Assembly: GCA_947259235.1 (NCBI GenBank)
Contig: CAMYLL010000055.1
Location: 1-11,688 of the forward strand
Direction of reading: 5' to 3'
DNA length: 11,688 nucleotides
From: an uncultured Pseudodesulfovibrio sp.
Lineage (GTDB): Bacteria > Desulfobacterota > Desulfovibrionia > Desulfovibrionales > Desulfovibrionaceae
The translations under genes were made by a program, and so were the position numbers. Each line of letters starts with the position of its first letter. Within the stretch, counting starts at the first letter, position 1. Below the pieces are notes generated by a model. It was given only the letters and a program-made list of their open reading frames with translations. It made no database searches and was not told where the DNA came from. Positions 1 through 11,688 of the stretch are shown one piece after another.

Positions 1-303
1 GTCGTCGTTGACCGGATTGGTGTTGGCCATGCACATGATGTTGGAGAACCCTCCCCAGGCCGCCGCGCGCAGCCCGGATTCGATGTCCTCCTTGTATTCG
101 AAGCCCGGCTCGCGCAGATGGACGTGGGCGTCCGTCATGGACGGCATGAGCTGGAGCCCGAAGGCTTCCTCGACCACGGCGTCGCCCGGATCAAGCGACG
201 CGGCCGAGGGCGTCACCTCGACTATCTTGCCCCGGCTCACGAAAACATCCACATCCCTGCCGTCGAGCTTCGCCCTGCGGACGATCAAATCTGTCTTGGC
301 CAT
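1..303 (-). CDS. pyrC: Dihydroorotase, N-terminal part (cut by window edge)
   Basis: Dihydroorotase interconverts carbamoyl aspartate and dihydroorotate, the third step of pyrimidine synthesis, in the cytoplasm. The visible 101 residues begin MAKTDLIVRRAKLDG. They contain the small N-terminal beta domain and the metal-binding motif DAHVHLREPG, followed by GGFSNIMCMANTNPV, both typical of the PyrC type I family. The C-terminal three quarters lie beyond position 1. I place the start at 303 because a GGAG ribosome-binding site (313-316) sits 9 nt upstream. An in-frame ATG at 318 would add MEKND but has a poor upstream site. The gene lies 127 bp downstream of pyrB on the same strand, which fits a shared pyrimidine operon. 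The identity is clear; only the exact start is open. Confidence 0.93.
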   Translation of the reverse strand, partial: MAKTDLIVRRAKLDGRDVDVFVSRGKIVEVTPSAASLDPGDAVVEEAFGLQLMPSMTDAHVHLREPGFEYKEDIESGLRAAAWGGFSNIMCMANTNPVNDD

Positions 304-309
304 ATCATT

Positions 310-316
310 CTTCTCC
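310..316 (-). promoter_or_regulatory. Ribosome-binding site that decides the pyrC start
   Basis: On the minus strand this reads GGAGAAG, ending 6 nt before the ATG at 303. It favours that codon over the in-frame ATG at 318, which lies just upstream of the site and so could not use it. Confidence 0.6.
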
Positions 317-367
317 ATGGTCGCCGAGTGTCCCGGCCGGTGATATCAACGTTCGCAACGGCCGTCA

Positions 368-420
368 AAAGGTGTTTGAAGCGCCGGAAAAGGGGCGGGC
401 CGAAGCGGCCGGACACCTTT
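368..420 (-). other. Nested inverted repeat between pyrB and pyrC
   Basis: Outer arms AAAGGTGT (368-375) and ACACCTTT (413-420) are exact inverted repeats. They enclose a compact inner hairpin, GGCCG/CGGCC with a 3-nt loop (398-410). On the transcribed (minus) strand the second outer arm is followed by a short T run, so a weak intrinsic terminator or attenuator is possible. The interior is asymmetric, with a long unpaired stretch (376-397), so the structure is not a textbook terminator. It may instead be an mRNA-stability element between two cotranscribed genes. Confidence 0.35.
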
Positions 421-430
421 GCACGGCCGC

Positions 431-1360
431 CTAGGCGTCGCCCTTGCGGGTCATGTAGAGAAACAGCAGCGCCATGCGCACCACCACGCCGCTTGAGACC
501 TGGTCGAGGATCAGCGAATCGGCGCAGTCGGCAAGCTCCGAGCTGATCTCAACCCCCCGGTTGATGGGGCCGGGGGGGATGATCTTGACCTCGGGCCGGG
601 CCAGCTCCACATGGCGCGGTCCCAGGCCGTATGTACGGGCGTACTCGCGCAGGTCGGGCAGCAGGCCGTCCTGCTGGCGCTCCAGCTGGAGCCGCAGGCA
701 CATGACGGCGTCCACTCCCCGCACCGCCTCGTTCAGGTCGGAGTAGACCGCCGCAGGCCAGCTCCGCACCGCGGGCGGCAGGAGCGTGCGCGGGCCGCAC
801 AGCCGGACCGTGGCCCCCAGCTTGTTGAGCAGGACCACGTTGGACCGGGCCACCCGGCTGTGGGCTATGTCGCCCAGGATGAGCACGGTCTTGCCGCGCA
901 CGTCCCCCCATTCCTGGTGCAGGGTGAACCCGTCGAGCAGGGCCTGGGTGGGATGGGCGTGGCGTCCGTCGCCCGCGTTGATCACCGAGCACTCCACCCG
1001 GCTGGACAGGAACCGCGCCGCGCCGCTGCACCAGTGGCGCAGGACGATGGCGTCCGGGGCCATGGCCTGGAGCGTCAGGGCGGTGTCCTTGAGGGTCTCC
1101 CCCTTGATCAGGCTCGACGAGCTCTTGGCCAGCGAAAAGGTGTCTGCCGAGAGCCGCTTGCCCGCCACGTCGAAGCTCGTCTTGGTGCGCGTGCTCGGCT
1201 CGGCGAAGAACAGGACCACGCTGCGGCCCTTGAGGGTCGGCACTTTCTTGACCGGCCGCTCCTGCAGTTCCTGAAACCTGCCCGCGGTCTCGAAGATCGC
1301 CATGACCTCGGATCGCGACAGCTGGGATACGTCCAGCAAATCCTTGTGTAGCCACTTCAT
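431..1360 (-). CDS. pyrB: Aspartate carbamoyltransferase catalytic subunit
   Basis: The enzyme transfers the carbamoyl group of carbamoyl phosphate to L-aspartate, the committed step of pyrimidine synthesis, as a cytoplasmic trimer. The 309-residue length is normal for the catalytic chain. The carbamoyl-phosphate loop [11 protein letters not shown] (STRT at 56-59) is present, followed by the mobile loop SSSLIKGE (K86), RH at 107-108, [16 protein letters not shown] (H136, Q139) and the C-terminal [10 protein letters not shown] (263-272). The start at 1360 has a GGAGG about 10-11 nt upstream. No regulatory chain gene (pyrI) is visible in the window. The stop codon of the upstream amidohydrolase is only 45 bp away and pyrC follows 127 bp downstream, so cotranscription of the three is likely. 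The nearest alternative, ornithine carbamoyltransferase, is excluded by the aspartate-type HPTQ and PGPINRG motifs. Confidence 0.96.
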
Positions 1361-1405
1361 ATGCTCTCATGCCTCCGGCACTGGTGAAAAAAACGCTCGG
1401 GACGC

Positions 1406-2542
1406 TCAGTCCCCCAAAAGATCTATCAGCCCGTCTGGAACCGTGGAAAAAACGGCCGTCTTGCCCGGTTCCAGGGTTCCCAGCCGCGCCTGCGCGCCCA
1501 GGATGCGGGCCGGGGTGCGCGTGATCATGGCCAGGAGATCGGTCAGGGACAGCCTGCCCTCGTACCGCTCGGCAAACCATGTGGTCTCGGCATAGAGGTC
1601 GAGGTCATGGTTGGACGCCAGGGAGTCGGTCCCCAGGCACAGCGGCGTGCCCGAGGCGACCCACTTCTCCCACGGGGCGCGGTCGCGCCCGATGTATTCG
1701 TTGGACCGAGGGCACAGGCAGACCGTGGCCCCGGACCGGCGCACCGTTTCAATGTCCTCGTCCGTAACCTTGACGCAGTGCACGGCCAGGGTGGTTTCGT
1801 CGAGCAGGCCCAGCTCGGCCGCGTGCTGCACCGGGCGCTTTTGCGGCGCGACGAAATCAAGCAGCCGCCCGCGCCCGCGCAGCAGGTCCAGGAATCCGCT
1901 CGGCTCTCCGGCCATGATCGCCACCTCGTCGTCGTGCTCGGACAGGTGCAGCGAAAAGGGCAGCCCGCGTTGCACGGCCTCGGCCTTGGCGGCGCGCAGC
2001 ACCCGGACATGGGTGGTGTACAGGGCGTGCCCGGCCACGGACATGACCCCGGCCGAGTACTCGCCGCCCGGGATGAACGAGCGCTTGGGAACCGCCTCGC
2101 CGATGGCCTCGGCGAAGACCACGAAAAAAAGGCCGGAAGCTTCAAGCGATCCGGCCATTTCCTTTGCGAAACGGGTGGCTATGTCCCCGACCATGACGGT
2201 CCCGGTTCGTTTGAGCTCGCGCAGGGCCTGGTCCAGCAGGTCCGGGTCGAGATCATGGATGGGGCGGGCCAGCAGGTCCTCGACCCAGGTCACGAACCCC
2301 TGGCCGGTCGGGCACTGGCCGCGCAGGTGGGCCAGCTCCAGATGAGAATGGGCGTTGATCAGTCCGGGGGCGATGGTCACGTCGCCAAGGTCGGTGACGG
2401 TCCCGGAAAAGGTCGGGGCGAGATCGCCGTAGGTGCCGATCCCGGTGATGATCCCCTGGCTGGCGATGATGGCCGCGTCGTCGATGACGGGCGCGCCCGG
2501 GATCATGGTCGCGGCTTTGGCCGCACGAAACAATTCAGACAT
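1406..2542 (-). CDS. Amidohydrolase / deaminase of the TrzN-SsnA-MtaD type
   Basis: This is a cytoplasmic metal-dependent hydrolase of the amidohydrolase superfamily, probably a deaminase acting on an aminated purine-like or related ring. With the start at 2542 it has 378 residues. Metal and catalytic residues are in order: HSHLE (H65, H67), HLSEHDDE (H199, E202), LAVHC (H255) and LGTDS (D306), plus LCPRSNEYIG before the last. The small beta domain is split between N and C termini, and the C-terminal LGTLEPGKTAVF matches the family end. The frame is open upstream to 2728, but the added residues are basic and low-complexity in look, while MSELFRAAKA begins the family-type strand. Substrate cannot be read from the sequence. 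Aminodeoxyfutalosine deaminase (MqnX, menaquinone route) is one reasonable candidate, and a nucleoside or SAH/MTA deaminase another. It is first in a probable operon with pyrB and pyrC. Confidence 0.85.
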   Translation of the reverse strand: MSELFRAAKAATMIPGAPVIDDAAIIASQGIITGIGTYGDLAPTFSGTVTDLGDVTIAPGLINAHSHLELAHLRGQCPTGQGFVTWVEDLLARPIHDLDPDLLDQALRELKRTGTVMVGDIATRFAKEMAGSLEASGLFFVVFAEAIGEAVPKRSFIPGGEYSAGVMSVAGHALYTTHVRVLRAAKAEAVQRGLPFSLHLSEHDDEVAIMAGEPSGFLDLLRGRGRLLDFVAPQKRPVQHAAELGLLDETTLAVHCVKVTDEDIETVRRSGATVCLCPRSNEYIGRDRAPWEKWVASGTPLCLGTDSLASNHDLDLYAETTWFAERYEGRLSLTDLLAMITRTPARILGAQARLGTLEPGKTAVFSTVPDGLIDLLGD

Positions 2543-2591
2543 TCGCTGTTCCGGTTTCCCTCTGCGCAAGGAGTGTTTGATCTGGTGTCGT

Positions 2592-2605
2592 GTCCGCGCA
2601 CGGAC
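2592..2605 (-). other. Short leader hairpin before the amidohydrolase-pyrBC operon
   Basis: A perfect 5-bp stem, GTCCG/CGGAC, with a 4-nt loop lies 50 bp upstream of the amidohydrolase start. No T tract follows it on the transcribed strand, so it is unlikely to terminate by itself. Confidence 0.25.
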
Positions 2606-2664
2606 TGAGAGTAGGAAGTACCGCTTTTTGGTTGCAGGGTCCAGGGAAATCCGGGTGAAAAGGT

Positions 2665-2704
2665 GACGGCGTTCTCTGCCGCCGCCGTCGGTTTCGGCGG
2701 CAGA
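2665..2704 (-). other. Two mutually exclusive hairpins between acs and the amidohydrolase
   Basis: Hairpin A is a perfect 10-bp stem, TCTGCCGCCG (2675-2684) with CGGCGGCAGA (2695-2704), loop 10 nt. Hairpin B is a 7-bp stem, GACGGCG (2665-2671) with CGCCGTC (2683-2689). Both use bases 2683-2684, and B's right arm lies in A's loop, so both cannot form fully together. On the minus strand B is followed by ACCTTTTC, a short T run. The segment is about 125-165 bp past the acs stop codon and 120-160 bp ahead of the amidohydrolase start. It may be the acs terminator, an operon attenuator, or both. Confidence 0.4.
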
Positions 2705-2828
2705 CCTGAGCGTGCCGTGGCCTGTCACGGGTTTTCGCGATTCGTGTTCGCCAAGGACGGATCAGGAAGGCAGGCGAAGGAGAGAGCCGGTTGCAAGGCC
2801 TCGCCTCCCGCTGCATGGCGGTGCGGGG

Positions 2829-4745
2829 CTAGTCGGACTGCATGCCCGTCAGGTCGCCGATGTCGTTGCCCAGCTCTTCTGACTTGAGCACGCGGCGCAT
2901 GATCTTGCCCGACCGGGTGCGGGGCAGCGTTTCCCTGAACTCCACGGACTTGATCACGGCCACCGGGCCGAGCTCGTTGCGCACGGTGCGCTTGAGTTCC
3001 TTGACCATGGCGTCGTCGGGCGTGAAGTCGTTGTTGAGGATGACAAAGGCCTTGGCCGCCTCGCCCTTGATCTTGTCGGGCACGCCGATGACGGCCACCT
3101 CGTTGACTGCGGGGTTGAAGGAGAACGCGGCCTCCACCTCGGCGGAGCCTATGCGGTGTCCGGCGATGTTGATGACGTCGTCGGCCCGGCCCTGGATCCA
3201 GATGTAACCGTCCTCGTCCTTTCGGGCCACGTCGCCCGCGTAGTAGGCGCCGGGGATTTGGGTCCAGTATTCCTTGTACCGGTCGTCGTCGTTCCACAGG
3301 CCGGTCATCATGGCGGGCCATGGCTTGGTGACCACGAGCAGGCCGCCCTTGCCCGGGGGCATGGGGGTTCCGTCCTTGTCCACCACGTCGGCCTCCACGC
3401 CGGGCAGGGGCTTGGTCACCGAGCCGGGCTTGAGCAGGGAGATGGGCAGGGGCGAGAGCATGAACATGCCGGTTTCGGTCTGCCACCAGGTGTCGATCAC
3501 CGGGCACTCGCTACGGCCGATGTTCTTGTAGAACCATATCCAGGTCTCGGGCGAGATGGGCTCGCCAACGGACCCGAGCAGGCGCAGGGAGGACAGGTCG
3601 TGCTGCTTGGGATACTGTGTGCCGAAGCGCATGAGCATGCGGATCATGGTGGGCACGGTGTAGAAGATGGTCACCCCGTAACGCGCGACGATGGACCAGA
3701 GGCGGTCCGCCTGGGGGTAGTTCGGGTGGCCCTCGTACATGACGGTGGTGGTTCCGGCCAGCAGGGGGCCGTATATGCCCGCGCTGTGGCCCGTCACCCA
3801 GCCCGGGTCGGCCGTGGACCAGAAGATGTCCGTGGGTTTGATGTCGAAGACCGTGGTCAGGGTGCGGTGGACCCCCACCATGTAGCCCGCGTGGGAGTGG
3901 ACCACGCCCTTGGGCTTGCCTGTGGTGCCCGAGGTGTAGAGCAGAAAGAGCGGATCGGCGGCGTCCATGACCTCTGTGGGCGCCTCGTTGCGCTCCTGGC
4001 GGATCAGGTCGTCGTAGTGAAAGTCGCGCCCGTCGAACATGTCCACCCCGATGTTGCAGCGGCGGACCACGACCATGGACTCCACGCAGTCGGCGCAGGA
4101 GCCCACCAGGGCGGCGTCCGCGACTTCCTTGAGGTTGATGATCTGGCCGTTGCGGTAGAAGCCGTCGGAGGTGATCAGCAGCTTGGCCTGGCAGTCGTTG
4201 ATGCGCTGGCGCAGGGCCTTGGCCGAGAACCCGGCGAAGACCAGGGAGTGGACCGCGCCGATCTTGGCCGAGGCGAGCATGGCAATGACGGTTTCGGGCA
4301 GGGCGGGCATGTAGACCACGACCCGGTCGCCCTTGCGGATGCCCAGGGAGCGCAGGGCGTTGGCGAAGCGGTTCACCTCGCGGTAGAGCTCGAAATAGGT
4401 GTATTTGCGCGAGTCGCCGGGTTCGCCCTCCCAGATCAGGGCGAGCTTGTTCTTGTTGGCGGTCTCGATGTGCCGGTCCAGCGCGTTGTAGACGATGTTG
4501 CAGCGCGCCCCGGCGAACCAGCGGTAGAAGGGGGCGTCCTTGTCGTCGAGGACCTGGTCCCATTTCTTGAACCAGTCCAGCTCGTCGGCGGCTTCTTCCC
4601 AATAGCCAAGGGGGTCCATGGCGGAAAACCGGCGTGCGGCCTCCAGCTCCTGGGGATTGACGTTGGCCTCGATGACCAATTGGGGCAACGGGCGCAGAAC
4701 CCGTTCCTCGGTGAGCAAGCTGTCAAGCGCTCCAGACTGATCCAT
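2829..4745 (-). CDS. acs: Acetyl-CoA synthetase, AMP-forming
   Basis: The enzyme makes acetyl-CoA from acetate, ATP and CoA through acetyl-AMP in the cytoplasm. In an incompletely oxidising sulfate reducer it would serve acetate assimilation. The 638 residues match the family length. The ATP loop YTSGTTGKPKG starts at Y270. DTWWQTETG carries W420-W421; the second Trp corresponds to the residue that limits the acyl pocket to acetate. The hinge region reads YYAGDVARKDEDGY and GRADDVINIAGHRIG, where bacterial Acs more often has GDGARRDEDGY and GRVDDVLNVSGHR. The C-terminal PRTRSGKIMRR carries the adenylation lysine K614, the usual site of acetylation control; no acetyltransferase gene is adjacent. 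The start at 4745 has a strong GAGGAGG 5 nt upstream. A LytTR regulator lies 107 bp upstream with possible binding repeats in the gap. Propionyl-CoA synthetase is a less likely alternative. Confidence 0.95.
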   Translation of the reverse strand: MDQSGALDSLLTEERVLRPLPQLVIEANVNPQELEAARRFSAMDPLGYWEEAADELDWFKKWDQVLDDKDAPFYRWFAGARCNIVYNALDRHIETANKNKLALIWEGEPGDSRKYTYFELYREVNRFANALRSLGIRKGDRVVVYMPALPETVIAMLASAKIGAVHSLVFAGFSAKALRQRINDCQAKLLITSDGFYRNGQIINLKEVADAALVGSCADCVESMVVVRRCNIGVDMFDGRDFHYDDLIRQERNEAPTEVMDAADPLFLLYTSGTTGKPKGVVHSHAGYMVGVHRTLTTVFDIKPTDIFWSTADPGWVTGHSAGIYGPLLAGTTTVMYEGHPNYPQADRLWSIVARYGVTIFYTVPTMIRMLMRFGTQYPKQHDLSSLRLLGSVGEPISPETWIWFYKNIGRSECPVIDTWWQTETGMFMLSPLPISLLKPGSVTKPLPGVEADVVDKDGTPMPPGKGGLLVVTKPWPAMMTGLWNDDDRYKEYWTQIPGAYYAGDVARKDEDGYIWIQGRADDVINIAGHRIGSAEVEAAFSFNPAVNEVAVIGVPDKIKGEAAKAFVILNNDFTPDDAMVKELKRTVRNELGPVAVIKSVEFRETLPRTRSGKIMRRVLKSEELGNDIGDLTGMQSD

Positions 4746-4750
4746 TGTAT

Positions 4751-4757
4751 CCTCCTC
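4751..4757 (-). promoter_or_regulatory. Strong ribosome-binding site of acs
   Basis: The minus strand reads GAGGAGG, 5 nt ahead of the ATG at 4745. It fixes the acs start and suggests efficient translation. Confidence 0.7.
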
Positions 4758-4778
4758 GCCGCGAAAATCCTTTCAGCG

Positions 4779-4808
4779 AGTCTATTTCGTATCACAGCGC
4801 CGCCGCAA
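4779..4808 (-). promoter_or_regulatory. Possible sigma-70 promoter of acs
   Basis: On the minus strand TTGCGG (4803-4808) is followed after 18 nt by TAGACT (4779-4784). This is a half-consensus -35 and a four-of-six -10. It would start transcription roughly 27 nt before the acs ATG. The weak match would fit a promoter needing an activator, and the LytTR-like repeats begin 14 nt upstream of the -35 element. Confidence 0.35.
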
Positions 4809-4822
4809 CGCCCGCGATATTC

Positions 4823-4853
4823 GGCAAGCGGTCCAAGCGGCGGGGCGAACGGT
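4823..4853 (-). promoter_or_regulatory. Putative LytTR operator: paired direct repeats upstream of acs
   Basis: On the minus strand ACCGTTCGCC (4844-4853) is repeated as ACCGCTTGCC (4823-4832), identical at 8 of 10 positions with a period of exactly 21 bp. LytTR proteins such as AgrA bind two imperfect 9-bp direct repeats separated by 12-13 bp, with consensus [TA][AC][CA]GTTN[AG][TG]. The first 9-mer here matches at 8 of 9 positions, the second at 7 of 9, and the gap between the 9-mers is 12 bp. The pair lies between a LytTR gene and acs, just upstream of a possible -35 box. Binding is inferred, not shown. Confidence 0.45.
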
Positions 4854-5722
4854 CAAAGTCCGATGACCTTTTTCAGCTCCGCGATGCGCCGGCGGCTGAT
4901 GGGCAGCTCGATGCGCGTGCGGCCCGCCGTGCGCAGCATGAAGTTGGAGCCGGGCATGCTGGCTATCTCGGTGACCATGTCCAGGTTGACGAGGTACTTG
5001 CGGTGCACCCGGAAAAAACGGTGCGGCTCCAGGCGGTCCTCCAGGTTCTTGAGGCGGTGGGAGGACAGAAACTTCTGGTTGGCCGTGTGCACGTACGAGT
5101 AGTCCTCGAAGGCCTCCACAAAGATGATCTGGTCGTAGGGAATGAGAATGGTGCGTCCGTCCTGGGAGACGGCGAGCTTCTCGATCTCCAGCCTGCGTCC
5201 GCCGGTCTGGTCCCAGGCGGATTTGAGGGCGGCCAGGAACGAGTCCTGTTCCTCCTCGGGCAGGGGGAGCTGCACGGTCTGCTCGTTGTCGTCGTCCGGG
5301 GCGTCCTGGTCCACGTTGAAGCTGGCCGGGGTGGGAACCTCGCGGAAGCGGGACTTGAAATTCTGGAGCCGGTCCACGGTGCGGGCCATGCGCCCGGGCG
5401 CGGGCGGCCACAGCAGGTAGTCCGTCGCGCCCAGCTCGAAGGCGGCGTAGGCATGGGTCTCTGTGTCGGAGATGAAGACCAGGGCGGGCTTGTGTTTGCG
5501 ACCGGCCAGCATCTGGGCCATCTCCATGCCCGAGGCGTCGCCCGGCAGGTCCACCCCCACGAAGAACACGCCGTACGGGATGGCCTCCAGCAGTTCCATG
5601 GCCTCGGAGGCGGTGACCGCCTCGCCCAGCACCTGGATGAAGCGGACGTCCTCCAGGGCGTCGCGCAGGGCGGTGCGGATTTCCGGATCCGGATGGATGA
5701 GCAGGGTCTTCAGCTTGGGCAT
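4853..5722 (-). CDS. LytTR-family regulator with degenerate receiver domain
   Basis: This is a cytoplasmic DNA-binding regulator of 289 residues. Residues about 4-125 have the receiver fold pattern, 128-175 form an acidic, proline-containing linker, and 178-285 are a LytTR DNA-binding domain. The LytTR part is marked by IPYDQIIFVEAFEDYSYVHT, FFRVHRKYLVNLDMV (236-250) and the final LPISRRRIAELKKVI. The receiver lacks the usual phosphorylation set. The acidic pair near the N terminus reads HPD (10-12), the phospho-acceptor position four residues before P60 is G56, and the conserved lysine before the proline near residue 106 is W105. Control by a sensor kinase through aspartyl phosphate is therefore doubtful. 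No histidine kinase gene is next to it. The nearest downstream gene is acs, 107 bp away, so acetate metabolism is a plausible target. The ribosome-binding site before 5722 is weak. Confidence 0.9.
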   Translation of the reverse strand: MPKLKTLLIHPDPEIRTALRDALEDVRFIQVLGEAVTASEAMELLEAIPYGVFFVGVDLPGDASGMEMAQMLAGRKHKPALVFISDTETHAYAAFELGATDYLLWPPAPGRMARTVDRLQNFKSRFREVPTPASFNVDQDAPDDDNEQTVQLPLPEEEQDSFLAALKSAWDQTGGRRLEIEKLAVSQDGRTILIPYDQIIFVEAFEDYSYVHTANQKFLSSHRLKNLEDRLEPHRFFRVHRKYLVNLDMVTEIASMPGSNFMLRTAGRTRIELPISRRRIAELKKVIGL

Positions 5723-5738
5723 GTCACGCGCGCTCTGG

Positions 5739-5815
5739 TTACAGGGGTATTCTCAATCCTCGGCAATGATATACCTGTAATCCCGAACAGGTGCAAGGTC
5801 GGGCGCGCGAACGGC
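5739..5815. promoter_or_regulatory. Repeats in the gap upstream of the LytTR gene
   Basis: The 103-bp gap between the cytidylyltransferase stop and the LytTR start holds an exact inverted repeat, TTACAGG (5739-5745) with CCTGTAA (5774-5780). It also holds a second ACAGG (5787-5791). On the minus strand two GTTCG-centred 9-mers (5807-5815 and 5783-5791) are 24 bp apart. They partly resemble LytTR half-sites but miss the usual 21-22 bp period. A clear sigma-70 promoter was not recognised. Regulation of the LytTR gene here, possibly by itself, is only a suggestion. Confidence 0.25.
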
Positions 5816-5825
5816 TTTTCCCTTT

Positions 5826-6506
5826 CTACCCGCGCTGGCGCATCAGCGTTTCTGCCAGAATGAAGTCGTGTTCGATGTCGATATCGACGGATTCCTGCGG
5901 CGGGGTGGGAAACATCTGCGGCGTGCGGCCGATTCTCTTGTGCCCGGCCCCGGCAAAGGACCGCTTGCTGAAAAGGAACAGGAGCGAGTTCTCCTCGAAC
6001 ACCGGCGGGAGGTCCTGGGTCCGCAGCAGCTCCGCCGGATCGTGATTCACGGCTTCGCCGGATTCCCAGTACAGGCGCGCCTGGAGCCGGTTGACGGAGA
6101 AGAGGGAATCGTAGGTGTCCCTGCCCTTGAAGTAGGCGTCTATGGCCCTGTCCACGGTTTTGGTGGTGAGCAGGGGGTTGGTCGCGTGGGTCTGCAGGAA
6201 ATGGTCCCCCGGACAGAGGGCGATGTCGTGGGCGATGATGGTGTTCATGGAGATCATGTCTCCGCATATGGATTCAGGACGCCAATGAATGGTCACCTTT
6301 GGAAAGTTCTTCGTCGCCTGTTCGGCGATGGCCTCGCTGTCGGTGTTGATGACGATGCTGTCGACCAGGGTGCTTCCCTGGAGCGCTGCGGCGACATGGA
6401 AAAACAGGGGAACGCCGCACATGGGACGGAGGTTCTTGTTAGGGACCCGTTCGGAGTGGCCCTTCATGGGCAGCAGTGCTGTGATTTTCATTGGTTTCCG
6501 GCTCAT
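5826..6506 (-). CDS. CMP-sugar synthetase-like cytidylyltransferase
   Basis: The protein belongs to the acylneuraminate/KDO cytidylyltransferase family, which moves CMP from CTP to the anomeric hydroxyl of a 2-keto-3-deoxy sugar acid in the cytoplasm. It has 226 residues, normal for the family. The N-terminal nucleotide loop LLPMKGHSERVPNKN (11-25) replaces the commoner PARGGSKRIPxKN. NTDSEAIAE (54-62), QTHATNPLL (105-113) and ESVDIDIEHDF (205-215, with metal-binding D208 and D210) follow. The altered first loop and the neighbours suggest a substrate other than sialic acid or KDO. The start ATG at 6506 overlaps the dehydrogenase stop (ATGA), implying translational coupling; a second in-frame ATG at 6491 has a GGAAA upstream and could be used instead. 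It is the last gene of a three-gene cassette. No glycosyltransferase is adjacent to show which polymer receives the sugar. Confidence 0.85.
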   Translation of the reverse strand: MSRKPMKITALLPMKGHSERVPNKNLRPMCGVPLFFHVAAALQGSTLVDSIVINTDSEAIAEQATKNFPKVTIHWRPESICGDMISMNTIIAHDIALCPGDHFLQTHATNPLLTTKTVDRAIDAYFKGRDTYDSLFSVNRLQARLYWESGEAVNHDPAELLRTQDLPPVFEENSLLFLFSKRSFAGAGHKRIGRTPQMFPTPPQESVDIDIEHDFILAETLMRQRG

Positions 6507-7420
6507 TGTTCAAGGGACGAGAGGAGGTTCTCGACGGCCTGTGTTTCCTGAATGACGCGGCCTTCCCGGGCGTATGAGCCGATGTGTCCTGTCAAGACCG
6601 CGTTCGGATAGTTGCGAAGCGGGCCGGTATAGGGCTCCTGCTCAAAGCAGTCCATGGCAACGCCGCCCAGCCGTTTTTCGCTTAGCGCTCTCTCCAGGGC
6701 GATTTCGTCTACCAGTCCGCCGCGAGAGTAGTTGAGCAGAAACGCGCCGGGTTTCATGGACCCGATGACGGACGCATTGATCAGGTGGTGCGTTTGCGCC
6801 ATGTACGGGACATGCACGCTGACGATGTCCGACTGTGAATAGAGGGTCTGGGCATCAACCATCGTCACGTCGGGAAAACTGGTCACAACGGGGTCATGGG
6901 CGAGAATCCGGCAGCCAAATGGCTTCAGGAGTGAAACGAGCCGGGTTCCGATTCTTCCCATGCCAAGGATGCCGACCGTTTGACAGGCAAGAAGAGAGCC
7001 CATGGGGCGCTCCCATTGCCCCCCGTGTATCGCCGAGCTGGAACGATCGATGCCGCGCAGCAGACAGAGCATCGCGCCGAGGGTGATCTCGGCCACGGCC
7101 TGGGTCGGGGCGTCCGGCGTGTTGGTGACGCGTATGCCAAGCTCTTTGGCCGCGTCCAGGTCCACGGAGTCCATGCCTATGCCGCATCTGGCGATGGCTC
7201 TCAGTTGGGAGCCGGAGGCCATGACGCGTCGCGTCAGCGGCTCCACGCCCGCCACGAGGCCGACGGGCTGGTGTTCCGTGATGAGGGCGACGGCTTCGTC
7301 TTCCGTCAGCTTCCGGCAGTGCGGATTGAGAATCGGGCTGAACCCCGCGTTGCGCAGCGCGGCCAGCGGGCTCGCGTCCATCGTGCCGAACGACGAGGTG
7401 GTGATGAGGATGTTTTTCAC
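6503..7420 (-). CDS. D-2-hydroxyacid dehydrogenase (SerA/hydroxypyruvate reductase-like)
   Basis: This is a cytoplasmic NAD-linked dehydrogenase that would reduce a 2-keto acid or oxidise a D-2-hydroxy acid. With the start at 7420 it has 305 residues, the size of short forms without an ACT domain. The NAD fold shows GILGMGRIG (GMGRIG at 153-158) and an acidic residue after the second strand, HDP (D176), indicating NAD rather than NADP. The catalytic triad is complete: R233 in YSRGGLVDE, E262 in MDCFEQEP and H279 in LTGHIG. The GTG at 7420 is chosen because GGAGG lies 6 nt upstream and the codon overlaps the aldolase stop as GTGA; a GTG at 7435 is in frame but lacks such a site. Its place between the aldolase and the cytidylyltransferase suggests it supplies or modifies the acid that is activated. 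The precise substrate is unknown. Confidence 0.87.
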   Translation of the reverse strand: MKNILITTSSFGTMDASPLAALRNAGFSPILNPHCRKLTEDEAVALITEHQPVGLVAGVEPLTRRVMASGSQLRAIARCGIGMDSVDLDAAKELGIRVTNTPDAPTQAVAEITLGAMLCLLRGIDRSSSAIHGGQWERPMGSLLACQTVGILGMGRIGTRLVSLLKPFGCRILAHDPVVTSFPDVTMVDAQTLYSQSDIVSVHVPYMAQTHHLINASVIGSMKPGAFLLNYSRGGLVDEIALERALSEKRLGGVAMDCFEQEPYTGPLRNYPNAVLTGHIGSYAREGRVIQETQAVENLLSSLEQ

Positions 7421-8124
7421 TCCATGCCTCCGCACACTGCCCGCGATTCCGACACAGCGTTCCGCGCTCCCTGGCCAAGGAAGAGGCTGTCCAGGCCATA
7501 GGCGAGGAATCGGTAGCCCTGATCACGTTTCGCCTGCAAAACCTGCGGATCTGGCTGTACGACATGAAAGCCGGCGGCAATCTTGCGGAGCGCCGCAACG
7601 CGCTGGACCTCGGCAAGGGCTTCGACAACCTCCGGGTGGTCGAATTTTCCGGGTACTCCAAGGGAGCCTGAAAGATCGTAGGGACCCACGATAAAGCCGT
7701 CCACGCCGTCCACGTCGAGGATTGCCTCAAGATTGGTGACGGAATCGATATGCTCGACCTGGACGATGACAACGCTGTTTTCGTCATTCCACTTCTGGTA
7801 TTCCTCAAAGCCGAATCCATACTGCTGGGCACGGGCGAGGCCAACACCGCGGAACCCGCGCGGGGGATATTTCACGGAGGCGACAGCCTGCTCCGCCTCG
7901 GCCGGGGAATTGACCATGGGGACAATGACGCCGGTCGCTCCGGCATCCATGACCCGCTTGATGATGTTCGGCTGATTGTGTCCGACGCGCACCAGCGGCG
8001 TCACGCCGCAGTGGTCCACCACCCGGATCATCTCCTGCGCCATGCCCAGCTCGATGGAGCTGTGTTCCATATCGATGGTGAGGCTTTCGGCGGTGTGCAG
8101 CCGGGAACGAAAAGAGTTTTTCAT
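7417..8124 (-). CDS. HpcH/HpaI-family aldolase, N-terminally shortened
   Basis: The family performs metal-dependent aldol cleavage or formation of 2-keto-3-deoxy acids, usually with pyruvate as the nucleophile. The 235 residues are shorter than the usual 250-265. Key residues are present: E20-H21 in TIDMEHSS, pyruvate-binding R46 in PLVRVGH, metal ligands E124 in VQVEH and D150 in GPYDLSGSLG. Compared with E. coli HpaI (H45, R70, E149, D175) each is shifted by 24-25, so the missing residues all lie before H21. The sequence runs directly from SRLHTAES to LTIDMEH, omitting the segment that normally forms the first beta strand and helix. The reading frame is intact and an AGGA lies just before the ATG. 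It is first in a cassette with the dehydrogenase (GTGA overlap) and the cytidylyltransferase. It may make a keto-deoxy acid for CMP activation, or may be impaired. Confidence 0.85.
   Translation of the reverse strand: MKNSFRSRLHTAESLTIDMEHSSIELGMAQEMIRVVDHCGVTPLVRVGHNQPNIIKRVMDAGATGVIVPMVNSPAEAEQAVASVKYPPRGFRGVGLARAQQYGFGFEEYQKWNDENSVVIVQVEHIDSVTNLEAILDVDGVDGFIVGPYDLSGSLGVPGKFDHPEVVEALAEVQRVAALRKIAAGFHVVQPDPQVLQAKRDQGYRFLAYGLDSLFLGQGARNAVSESRAVCGGME
7427..7431 (-). promoter_or_regulatory. Ribosome-binding site that decides the dehydrogenase start
   Basis: GGAGG on the minus strand stands 6 nt before the GTG at 7420 and lies inside the last codons of the aldolase gene. It supports the overlapping GTG start and coupled translation. 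Confidence 0.65.
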
Positions 8125-8439
8125 GAGTCCTGCATCCGTTAATGGGTTCGTCCGTCACGTGTGAGGCGTTTGCTTGCTATAGAATCAGTCGTCATCGTTC
8201 TTGTGCAATATCAGCCCCGGCGCTCAGTGCCAACCACTGAACGCCAGGGGGGGGCATCAAGAATCGTCCTGCATGCCGGGGCTGGCCGGATGGAGTGATC
8301 GGGTTGTTGTCCCATGTCAAGCGTACCGGTCTGTCCATTCCCGGTACGATCCGTTCCCGTATTCCCATGGGAGAGAGGGGAAGGCTGCCGGGGCCGGGAC
8401 CCTCGTGGGGAGAGTCCCGGCCCCGGGCCGTGTTGGTTT
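8125..8439. other. 315-bp intergenic region between the cytochrome unit and the aldolase cassette
   Basis: No credible gene was found here. It contains the long GC hairpin just past the cytochrome stop (listed separately). It also has a second hairpin, TCAGTG/CACTGA with a 5-nt loop (8224-8240), which lacks a T tract. On the minus strand a weak promoter-like pair can be drawn, TTGCAC (8203-8208) with GATTCT (8181-8186) at 16-nt spacing, about 60-85 bp before the aldolase start. The promoter of the three-gene cassette must lie in this region if the cassette is an independent unit, but the match is poor. Confidence 0.4.
8388..8426 (-). terminator. Strong GC hairpin ending the cytochrome transcription unit
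   Basis: A perfect 13-bp stem, CCGGGGCCGGGAC (8388-8400) with GTCCCGGCCCCGG (8414-8426), has a 13-nt loop and begins 13 nt past the TAA of the cytochrome gene. On the transcribed minus strand it is followed by a pyrimidine-rich stretch, not a clean T run, so it is an atypical intrinsic terminator or an mRNA 3'-end barrier. On the plus strand it is followed by TTTTT within about 14 nt, but no plus-strand gene needs it. Confidence 0.55.
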
Positions 8440-10950
8440 TTATTCCAGGCCCATCCCGGGATGGTGGACGGGGAAGTCCATGGCCTCCACGTGGCAGGCC
8501 GTGCAGGAGCCCTGAGCCCCGATGGGCTGGGCCTCGCCCGTGTACTGTACCGGCTGGGTGGAGTCGCGCTCCGTGGCCGGGTGGATGGCGTGGGGCGAGC
8601 CGTGGCAGCCCGCGCAATACACCGCGCCCATGTCGTCTCGTCGGGCGGAGAAGAGCTCGGCCGGGCCGTCCGTCCAGACGTTGAAGGCGTCCAGCGTCTC
8701 CGGCGGAGCGAAGTCCACGTGGCAGGTCAGGCAGTCGGGCTCGTTGCTCCAGGGCGCGCGCGGCTCGATGGCCTCCTGGGTTCCCAGGGTGCGCGGGGTG
8801 AGCTGGGCCAGTATCCTGTCCGCTCCCGGCTTGCCCGCCGCCTGTTCAGCCTTGAGCAGGGAGATGGCGAAGTCCTCCATCATGCCGTGGCAGCTGGTGC
8901 AGTCCAGGGCGTCGCCGTGCAGGCCGCGCAGGGTGTTCTGCGGGTGGCACTTGAGGCAGGAGCCGTCCGCGTCCCGTCCGGCCAGATAGACGGCGTGCAC
9001 GCCGTGGATGGCGGCCGAGAGGTTGGGCCTGTCGTTTGCGCCCCGGGCGTTCTGGGCCGGGTCGTCGTGGCACTCCACGCACAGGATCGGGCCTTTTTTG
9101 GAGCGCTCGACGTGGTTGGTGTTGTTCATTCGGTCGTGCACGGCCAGGACGTTGTCCGCCGTGGCCCTGGATACGCCGGAGCCGTCGCGGGCCCAGTCGC
9201 CGCCGTGGCAGTTGCGGCAGCCCATCTGGTCGCTGACGGGCAGGGCCGCGCGGGTGGTGGCGAGAACAGTGCCGTCCGCGTCGCGGGCCTCGATGGTGGC
9301 CATGGGCAGCGGGTTGAACGCGCCGTCCTTGTAGGGCAGCACGCCCAGGACCGCCTCGAACCGTCCGCCGTCCTCATTGGGTTCCATGGCCCCGGTCAGG
9401 CCGTCGCCCTCGAACCCGGGCTCCACGGCATAGGACAGGGTCACCCCGTCGGTGACCACGCTGGGCGACGGGTCGCGCGCAATGAGCTGGGCGCGGAGGG
9501 CGTTGCCCGGGGGCAGCAGGGTCCAGGCGTCGGTCTGAGCATAGAAGTGCATGCCCTGGTCGGCCCAGGCCAGCAGGACATATTCCGCGGTTTCCGCGTC
9601 AAAGGGGGCGGGCTCGGCGGCCTGGACCTCGGGGACCACGGCCTGCTCCACGTCCGGTTTTCCGTTGAGCCCCTTGGCGATGTAGGTGGCCAGGGCCTTG
9701 CGCTCGTCGGTGGTCCCAAGGAACGGGGGCATGTACCGGTTGAGTTTGCCCATGCCCGTGAGCAGGGCGTCGAGCCCGTCCACGTCATACATGGCCGTGC
9801 GCTTGCCGATCTCGTTCATGGGCCCGCCGATGGAGTGGCAGGCGGCGCACTGGAGCTGGAAGAGGAAGGCTCCGGCCCGCATCCTGTTTTCGTCGGTGAT
9901 GCCCTGGCGCAGCTCGGGCGGGGTCCATCTGGCGCGGGCCAGGGCGCCGTCCTGGTTGATGACTGCGGCGTGGGATTTGATGATGGAGTTGGAATAGGCG
10001 TAGTCCCAGATCAGGTAGGGCTTCCGTCCGGCCTCGCGGATGAACTCGAAGGAGCCGAAAAGCCCCTGTCCGGCCAGCAGGACGACGAGGGCCATGCTGA
10101 AGCCCACCACTCGGGGCATCTTCACGGCCAGGGCCAGCCCGCCCGCCAGGGTCAGCCCGGCGAATATCCAGAACCATTGCATGAATCCGGCCACGCGGTG
10201 GGACTTGAGGGTCACCAGCGCATACTGCTCGGGCGGCAGGGCGGCCACATACCAGTAGCCCGAGGCCACCACGGCCAGTACGCCGACGATGGTCCAGGCC
10301 GAGCAGGTGCGCACGGCGCGCAGGCGGGTGGGCATGTCCGGGATGCGCGTGGCCGTGACAAAGCCGAACAGTCCGGCGCAGGCCGCCGAGAAGAAGGAGC
10401 GGAAGACCAGCGAGGGCCAGAAGGTGGGGTTGAAGAACCCGTCCCAGAAGTCCTTGGTCTGTATCCACTCGCCCGGGGTGAGCATGAAGGCGACGATGCC
10501 GTTGATGAGGAACAGGGAGAACCAGGCGAAGACGAAGTAAAGGGAGCCGACGATGAGGTGGTCGCGCCGGTTCATGGTGTTCCATGCGTAGTAATAGATA
10601 AGCAGGGCCACGATCTCGCCCGTGAAGCAGACCCACTCGGCCGCCCAGGCGAACACGAAATGATGGATCAGGGTAATGGTCGCCTGGGGCGCGAGCAGGG
10701 CCACCGTGAACCAGATGGCCACGCCGGACACGCCGCCGAAGGCCATGGTCAGCAGCAGGAAGAAGCGGGTGTGTTTGTGCGCGTATTCGAGCAGGTGGGG
10801 GTTGCCGCTGCGGTAGGCCGCCATCTCGGTGAGCACCAGGAACAGGCCGCCGCCCACGGCGAAGTGGGCCACGTAGACATGGACGGTGGCGATCAGGGCG
10901 ATCCAGAAGCCGCCGCCCAGGGTTGTCAGTTGCCAGATGGGATATTCCAT
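8440..10950 (-). CDS. CydA-like quinol-oxidising membrane domain fused to octahaem cytochrome c
   Basis: This 836-residue membrane protein probably takes electrons from menaquinol and passes them to periplasmic c haems. Residues 1-330 contain about eight hydrophobic segments (roughly 15-44, 61-87, 93-123, 131-157, 178-201, 214-239, 255-275, 279-303) and resemble cytochrome bd subunit I. H24 aligns with the N-terminal haem b595 ligand, E105/E112 with the conserved glutamates, and GRKPY (308-312) with the GRQPW motif. The equivalent of the haem b558 histidine appears to be R184, and the long Q loop is absent. A class I cytochrome c domain follows, with CAACH at 368 and likely Met ligand M407. 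After a beta-rich stretch, seven more CxxCH sites begin at 578, 624, 665, 684, 740, 779 and 816. The C-terminal part must be periplasmic. There is no separate signal peptide; the first membrane helix serves. The ATG is 3 bp past the upstream stop, behind GAGGAGAGGG. The electron acceptor is unknown. Confidence 0.87.
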   Translation of the reverse strand: MEYPIWQLTTLGGGFWIALIATVHVYVAHFAVGGGLFLVLTEMAAYRSGNPHLLEYAHKHTRFFLLLTMAFGGVSGVAIWFTVALLAPQATITLIHHFVFAWAAEWVCFTGEIVALLIYYYAWNTMNRRDHLIVGSLYFVFAWFSLFLINGIVAFMLTPGEWIQTKDFWDGFFNPTFWPSLVFRSFFSAACAGLFGFVTATRIPDMPTRLRAVRTCSAWTIVGVLAVVASGYWYVAALPPEQYALVTLKSHRVAGFMQWFWIFAGLTLAGGLALAVKMPRVVGFSMALVVLLAGQGLFGSFEFIREAGRKPYLIWDYAYSNSIIKSHAAVINQDGALARARWTPPELRQGITDENRMRAGAFLFQLQCAACHSIGGPMNEIGKRTAMYDVDGLDALLTGMGKLNRYMPPFLGTTDERKALATYIAKGLNGKPDVEQAVVPEVQAAEPAPFDAETAEYVLLAWADQGMHFYAQTDAWTLLPPGNALRAQLIARDPSPSVVTDGVTLSYAVEPGFEGDGLTGAMEPNEDGGRFEAVLGVLPYKDGAFNPLPMATIEARDADGTVLATTRAALPVSDQMGCRNCHGGDWARDGSGVSRATADNVLAVHDRMNNTNHVERSKKGPILCVECHDDPAQNARGANDRPNLSAAIHGVHAVYLAGRDADGSCLKCHPQNTLRGLHGDALDCTSCHGMMEDFAISLLKAEQAAGKPGADRILAQLTPRTLGTQEAIEPRAPWSNEPDCLTCHVDFAPPETLDAFNVWTDGPAELFSARRDDMGAVYCAGCHGSPHAIHPATERDSTQPVQYTGEAQPIGAQGSCTACHVEAMDFPVHHPGMGLE

Positions 10951-10953
10951 GGG

Positions 10954-11688
10954 TTACGCCCTCTCCTCGCGTGATTTCAGATAGAGTTTGATCATGTAGA
11001 CGGTCACCGCGAGGCCGACCACGAGGAAGCCGAGGAACAGGTAGAGCGAGGAGTACTGGCCGGTGACGGGCGTGGACTCGATCTGGAACCACGGGGCCAG
11101 GAACAGGGTGCGCAGCCAGTGCCGGGTGACGCTCATGAAGAACACCGTCAGCACGGCCCAGACCGCGGCGCGGCGCGGGGCTTTATGCAGGCTCGAAACC
11201 AGGAGCATGCTGGCGCACAGCAGGGCCGTGCCAAAGGCCAGGGTGGCCGGGAGGTTGCCGCCCATGAAGGCGAGCATGGTCTCGCGCGGCAGGGTCAGCA
11301 GAAACCACACGCCCACCGCGAGGTTGAGCATGGTGGCCCGGGTCAGCCAGGTCATGCCGACCTCCACGTGTTCCTGTTTCTTGATCCACTGGCCGAGCAG
11401 GGCCACGAACAGCCCGCCGATGGCCACCACGCCCACCATGAAGTGGAGGAAGCGCGGGTAAAGGGTCGGGTCCGACCAGTTGAGAAAGGCCTTGGCGTCG
11501 TCGAAATAGGTCGGCCAGAACTCGGGCCGCAGCATCAGGGTCATGTTGTTGGAGAGCATGAACCCCACGTAGAGTAGCCCGGCCAGCGAGGCGGCGAAGA
11601 GGGCCGTGCGTGCGCCCGGGCCCATTGTGTCGTAGCCGAACTTGAAATAGTAGAAGCCGTAGTACGAGACGAGCAGCACCGCGACGAC
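10954..11688 (-). CDS. Polytopic membrane partner of the cytochrome fusion, CydA-related, 5' end beyond window
   Basis: The visible 244 residues run from the right window edge to a TAA at 10954; the frame is open through the edge, so the true start is outside. About six to seven hydrophobic segments are present. The stretch SDPTLYPRFLHFMVGVVAIGGLF (visible residues 72-94) aligns with NPTFWPSLVFRSFFSAACAGLF of the downstream fusion protein. The partner keeps a histidine (visible residue 82) where the fusion has arginine. LSNNMTLMLRPEFW precedes it. This suggests the two proteins share a CydA-type ancestry and form one complex with divided haem ligands. There is no CxxCH site in the visible part. 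The stop is 3 bp before the next start, so the two are almost certainly cotranscribed and coupled. A haem-free structural role is the alternative. Confidence 0.7.
   Translation of the reverse strand, partial: VVAVLLVSYYGFYYFKFGYDTMGPGARTALFAASLAGLLYVGFMLSNNMTLMLRPEFWPTYFDDAKAFLNWSDPTLYPRFLHFMVGVVAIGGLFVALLGQWIKKQEHVEVGMTWLTRATMLNLAVGVWFLLTLPRETMLAFMGGNLPATLAFGTALLCASMLLVSSLHKAPRRAAVWAVLTVFFMSVTRHWLRTLFLAPWFQIESTPVTGQYSSLYLFLGFLVVGLAVTVYMIKLYLKSREERA

Follow-up and report, generated by a model that had tools for sequence, protein, structure and literature searches.

A widespread CydA-octahaem cytochrome c fusion of the cytochrome bd superfamily and its candidate role as a cytochrome c-fed oxygen reductase

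In which direction do electrons flow through a protein that joins a cytochrome bd-like membrane core to eight c-type haem sites in a single chain? The question is raised by a gene in an 11,688-nucleotide stretch of DNA from an uncultured Pseudodesulfovibrio sp. (assembly GCA_947259235.1, contig CAMYLL010000055.1, positions 1 to 11,688 of the forward strand; hereafter the window). A first-pass annotation, made from the sequence alone, had suggested that the product is an electron-exporting quinol dehydrogenase. The present analysis favours the opposite direction, and the fusion together with the product of the gene upstream of it probably constitutes a two-subunit bd-type oxygen reductase fed by cytochrome c. 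Inward flow to O2 is the simplest reading because the O2 site is kept, the known quinol features are lost, and the periplasmic c-haem domain is invariant. The fusion gene and its domains were located as follows.

8440..10950, (-) strand: CydA-like/octahaem c-type cytochrome fusion of 836 amino acids (aa), defined from the open reading frame (ORF), Pfam matches, an end-to-end alignment of 22 sequences and a structural model
9982..10950, (-) strand: eight-helix CydA-like domain, residues 1-323, with invariant H24, E105, E112, E302, R305, E306 and R309
9667..9918, (-) strand: monohaem cytochrome c domain, residues 345-428, with CAACH at 368-372 and the probable Met ligand M407 (Pfam, cytochrome c6 matches, invariance)
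9244..9582, (-) strand: beta-sandwich domain without a haem motif, residues 457-569
8443..9219, (-) strand: seven-haem domain, residues 578-836, with seven CxxCH motifs (PF22113, PF14537 and PF14522 matches)

The fusion is genuine. A search of 5.8 billion proteins gave 2280 relatives, and nearly all of the best 120 that were listed were full length. The scan of species-representative genomes detected at least 564 places encoding a relative, and the full-length fusion was present in the best 80 of them, retained as titled records from differing assemblies and including the complete genome of Desulfonema magnum. The named hosts of these 80 records also include Malonomonas rubra and Desulfogranum species, and most hosts belong to anaerobic groups as judged by their names. 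Eight CxxCH motifs were found in 70 of the 71 records with a script-picked ORF and seven in the other (L081); the script missed the fusion ORF in 9 of the 80 records owing to overlapping ORFs. The two halves do occur separately, as short proteins composed of a CydA part with c-haem (CydA-c) and as lone multihaem proteins, which would agree with an assembly or gene-calling artefact uniting two adjacent genes. Such an artefact was ruled out by the 80 records from independent assemblies as well as by the length of the 120 proteins, and we consider it exceedingly improbable; the single-chain architecture seen at first pass was thus confirmed as real and conserved in related genomes. A survey of 395 genomes evenly drawn from the window's phylum identified a CydA-c protein of the window's clade in 70 of them (18 full fusions and 52 short forms) with the cut set at an E-value below about 1e-60 for the membrane part. 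Any match was obtained in 117 of the 395, the match in the remaining genomes of the 117 being weak or confined to the multihaem part. The family is common yet little studied.

The membrane part of the fusion has the CydA fold of subunit I of the bd superfamily. The profile search with PF01654, which the first-pass annotation had proposed as a check, gave a match of 35.0 bits, above the curated cut-off of 26.2. In an alignment of 49 proteins, of which 38 were fusions and 11 were short forms, no variation occurred at H24, E105, E112, R184, E302, R305, E306, R309, P311, M407 or the first CxxCH. This list contains all five residues of the high-spin haem site (H24, E105, E112, E306 and R309), as placed by alignment to 5doq. 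In the Geobacillus enzyme the counterparts of H24, E105 and E112 are H21, E101 and E108, and that of E306 is the glutamate of the EVGRQPW stretch, which alone scores just 4.6 bits; the fusion has GRKPY in place of GRQPW. The E. coli counterparts are presumably H19, E99, E107, E445 and R448. Glutamates 99, 107 and 445 of the E. coli enzyme have been linked to proton-coupled O2 reduction (titles cited in PMC8951039).

The features associated with quinol oxidation are missing. The Q loop, in which Lys and Glu have been linked to quinol binding (PMC9846854), is absent: only 13 residues, largely forming a short helix in the model, connect helices 6 and 7. The loop is likewise missing from the model of the upstream gene product. 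The b558 histidine of helix 5 is also gone, as its alignment column is occupied by F183, next to the invariant R184. These losses had already been pointed out at first pass and were upheld here. An ordinary quinol oxidase (qOR) was ruled out by the missing Q loop.

Eight helices and eight CxxCH motifs were counted in the fusion, using the model and the sequence, respectively. The even number of helices and the Lys/Arg count (7 in the presumed cytoplasm-facing loops versus 3 in the other loops of the membrane domain) place the c-haems on the periplasmic side, in agreement with the outward position assigned to them at first pass. The monohaem domain matched PF13442 with 26.0 bits, slightly below the cut-off of 27, besides its cytochrome c6 matches, and M407 is the likely haem ligand. 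Seven extra histidines (605, 649, 652, 678, 787, 829 and 830) were invariant in 38 of 38 fusions; their number would just suffice to give each of the seven C-terminal haems a second His ligand. The haem content of the fusion given here is likewise a predicted one.

The bd superfamily has been split into the qOR, OR-C and OR-N families (PMC13189123, PMC10839748), and a profile is available for OR-C (PMC13189123, PMC11707229). In a tree of 50 N-terminal membrane parts, three groups were obtained, each on one side of a branch. The 14 qOR sequences (support 99/96) and five OR-N-like sequences (support 100/98) were separated from the fusion, which fell among 31 c-haem-bearing sequences (support 98/88), a branch for which the tool flagged a possible false grouping of two long branches, L173 and L165. 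The OR-N-like sequences were labelled by their length (619-653 aa) and the lack of CxxCH, not by a reference sequence. By its tree position and architecture, the fusion is a probable member of OR-C. OR-C was reportedly defined by Murali, Gennis and Hemp in 2021, and a c-haem is said to be among its features. Membership in OR-N was ruled out by the separate clade, the eight helices and the eight CxxCH motifs.

The gene upstream of the fusion gene, separated from it by 3 bases, was designated as the partner gene.

10954..11688, (-) strand: partner gene, encoding a second CydA paralogue (CydA-prime like) of which the C-terminal 244 residues are present, the 5' part lying beyond the contig end
10959..10968, (-) strand: Shine-Dalgarno-like GAGGAGAGGG, within the end of the partner gene and ahead of the fusion ATG

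A second CydA paralogue was found directly upstream of the fusion in most of the 80 titled records. In the phylum survey, a partner match was present in all 70 genomes with CydA-c, that in G375 being weak (E 2.8e-5), and adjoined CydA-c in 66 of them. Among the fusions it lay upstream in 17 of 18, and among the short forms it lay downstream in 48 and upstream in one; for the remaining three short-form cases the match was near a contig end. Seven further genomes had a partner match without CydA-c above the cut, two of which (G289 and G210) showed weaker CydA-c matches. In the fusion genome G161, the partner was 1.8 Mb distant and had a canonical cydA at about 5 kb; both this genome and L037 carry fusions without a neighbouring partner. 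In no fewer than three fusion genomes out of the 18 (G232, G357 and G376), the partner had a canonical cydA at a distance of about 1-5 kb or less, such counts among the survey genomes being minima. The partner is a second CydA paralogue and probably a part of the enzyme, a point missed at first pass.

The following mechanism would accommodate these features. The fusion would hold the bd pair of high-spin haems close to the periplasmic face by H24, E105/E112 and E306/R309, and the Met/His c-haem domain right after the last helix would replace the quinol and b558 sites as the electron entry. The seven bis-His c-haems may form a wire at which low-potential periplasmic cytochromes, for example c3, would dock; the window's genome has 13 Cytochrom_CIII domain matches. 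The upstream gene would provide the second half of a heterodimer, a CydA paralogue taking the place of CydB. Electrons would then enter from periplasmic cytochrome c, cross first the seven haems and then the monohaem domain, and reach the b-haem pair and finally O2 without involving the quinone pool, for O2 removal or energy conservation in anaerobes. The sequence, the predicted fold, the residue conservation, the gene order and the distribution form the observed part of this scheme; the haem content, the electron direction, the subunit pairing and O2 as the substrate are its presumptive elements.

Several observations weigh against it. The literature consulted contained no biochemistry on this enzyme. 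The partner was lacking upstream in five records despite the presence of upstream sequence, and by itself it matched canonical CydA at only 13% probability. E302 and R305 are invariant, but we know of no canonical motif that includes them, and the chemistry of the site may differ. Canonical CydA is largely retained in the host genomes too, including the window's own genome (G000:C80:1543-2814). The available flanks of 75 of the 80 records lacked cydAB, and most of 204 neighbouring ORFs were unrelated metabolic genes according to the families listed; these ORFs, 110-700 aa long and no more than 5.5 kb away, were drawn by codon score from 44 of the 80 records. In addition, a further site for quinol, close to haem b595, has been described for the M. 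tuberculosis enzyme (PMC9846854), so that quinol use is still conceivable without the Q loop.

In the electron-exporting quinol dehydrogenase proposed at first pass, menaquinol would be oxidised in the membrane part of the fusion or the partner and electrons would be passed via b-haems and c-haems to acceptors in the periplasm or on the outer surface. The features lost are those of quinol oxidation: neither subunit model has a Q loop, and the b558 His is gone from the fusion. The five O2-site residues kept in 49 of 49 proteins would have no obvious use if the protein were only a dehydrogenase. The outward direction is thus less likely than the inward one, and we regard the quinol dehydrogenase as rather unlikely. 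Alternatively, the same core, likewise fed by cytochrome c, may reduce a different small molecule, such as nitric oxide, peroxide or another ligand of high-spin haem. The high-spin residues would suit such an enzyme, and the additional invariance of E302/R305, GRKPY instead of GRQPW, and the largely anaerobic hosts speak for it. A substrate of this kind was suggested by none of the neighbour families listed, which were the 25 commonest of each list, and the recurrent redox neighbour is cydAB: canonical cydA or cydB was encoded in the flanks of five of the 80 records (L020, L038, L063, L069 and L079), when compared to 0.27-0.40 records expected by chance under simple assumptions. The nearby cydAB is a weak independent hint of O2 reduction, and a different substrate appears improbable. 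The cytochrome c-fed oxygen reductase is accordingly the interpretation that we retain.

The c-haem equipment of these proteins was found to be modular. We retrieved 20 loci with short forms and 20 loci with lone multihaem proteins, and read them by script. The CydA chain contained one c-haem in 17 of the short loci and three in two, the CydA-c frame of the other (L097) not being picked by the script. The core is constant and the c-haem set varies, from one haem or three in a row to a dihaem protein combined with CydA-c and a two-haem partner. This last, five-haem version was observed in L108-L111 and L113, from the window's own family and others, as CydA-c and a partner with two CxxCH, the dihaem cytochrome being found in L108, L110, L111 and L113. 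In L095, an eight-haem cytochrome (PF11783; 9933-11438, (+) strand) directly downstream of a three-haem CydA-c and partner is perhaps another form of the wire. The CydA-c gene of L112 (6341-7705, (+) strand), one of the 17 loci with a single c-haem, is broken into frames of 238 and 213 aa by a frameshift or sequencing error.

Multihaem proteins resembling the seven-haem part also exist on their own. L114 (7067-8851, (-) strand), from the window's family, encodes a 595-aa protein with a monohaem and a seven-haem domain and no CydA hit, which resembles the fusion minus its membrane part. In a tree of 65 proteins, the distribution of fusion and short forms required five changes, and well-supported branches force no fewer than four of these, indicating that the seven-haem module was gained or lost on several occasions. 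The 18 short proteins in this tree were selected by us out of 120, and one (P0236) came from a 2.4 kb contig and is possibly a fragment. The seven-haem part is an optional module, which had likewise been missed at first pass. Taken together, it is conceivable, though we hold this wider proposal only tentatively, that a cytochrome c-dependent CydA-CydA' bd enzyme draws on the periplasmic cytochromes of sulfate reducers to reduce O2 through exchangeable input modules of one, three, five or eight haems, and that its short relatives are candidates for the missing O2 reductase of cable bacteria.

Window positions 5826-8124 ((-) strand) carry a cluster of cytidylyltransferase, D-2-hydroxyacid dehydrogenase and HpcH/HpaI aldolase genes, perhaps of a sugar-acid or surface-glycan pathway and unrelated to the fusion. 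Positions 1-1360 and 2829-5722 ((-) strand) encode an acetyl-CoA synthetase and a LytTR response regulator, together with frames that by eye resemble dihydroorotase and aspartate carbamoyltransferase. Elsewhere in the window's genome there is a partial COX1 match (G000:C250:4267-4557). In two Desulfobulbaceae loci (L024:11170-11775 and L064:10707-11333), a weakly NnrU-like protein, barely below the Pfam cut-off, is encoded downstream of the fusion.

For cable bacteria, one study reported CydA homologues only and no complete bd oxidase in the genomes (PMC10030654), with an aa3 oxidase or CydBSA in a few species (PMC10030654, PMC11247825). Their CydA homologue (CydAh) has a periplasm-facing cytochrome c domain and was proposed for O2 reduction (PMC13047784), and electron transfer to the periplasm has been suggested for it as well (PMC12093952). 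No CydAh sequence under a cable-bacteria name was among the matches listed. The general idea of CydA with a cytochrome c domain is thus already published; no description of the octahaem form, of its partner or of the modular pattern was found in the literature consulted, in which the characterised bd enzymes are quinol oxidisers. The fusion is a widespread, uncharacterised variant inside a known superfamily. If the proposed function is true, anaerobic sulfate reducers could remove O2 via periplasmic multihaem cytochromes with the quinone pool bypassed, which would bear on O2 reduction at the ends of the periplasmic wires of cable bacteria and on the periplasmic O2 reduction reported for Desulfovibrio (a title cited in PMC13047784). 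The large family and culturable hosts make the question directly testable.

Among known systems, the haem-copper oxidases of the caa3 and cbb3 types follow the same principle, with c-haem domains fused or joined to an O2 reductase as the electron entry, and are unrelated in fold and active site. The fusion resembles OR-C in the CydA fold, the high-spin haem residues, the lack of a recognisable quinol site, and a clade beside qOR and the OR-N-like group. Canonical CydAB (qOR) shares the fold and the H/E/E/E/R residues of the haem site, but differs in having the Q loop, the b558 histidine, an extra helix after GRQPW and CydB, and no c-haem. The OR-N enzymes, thought to be CydA-CydA' pairs using cytochrome c (PMC10839748), are represented by CydAA' of Nitrospinota and Nitrospirales, which is similar in its two CydA-type paralogues, absent quinol site and cytochrome c as the proposed donor (PMC10839748, PMC12342949, PMC3578206), whereas three helices replace the Q loop in that of Nitrospina (PMC3578206). 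CydAh is alike in combining a CydA homologue with a periplasmic cytochrome c domain without CydB (PMC13047784, PMC12093952), and, judged from the published wording, may differ in being a short form with one haem.
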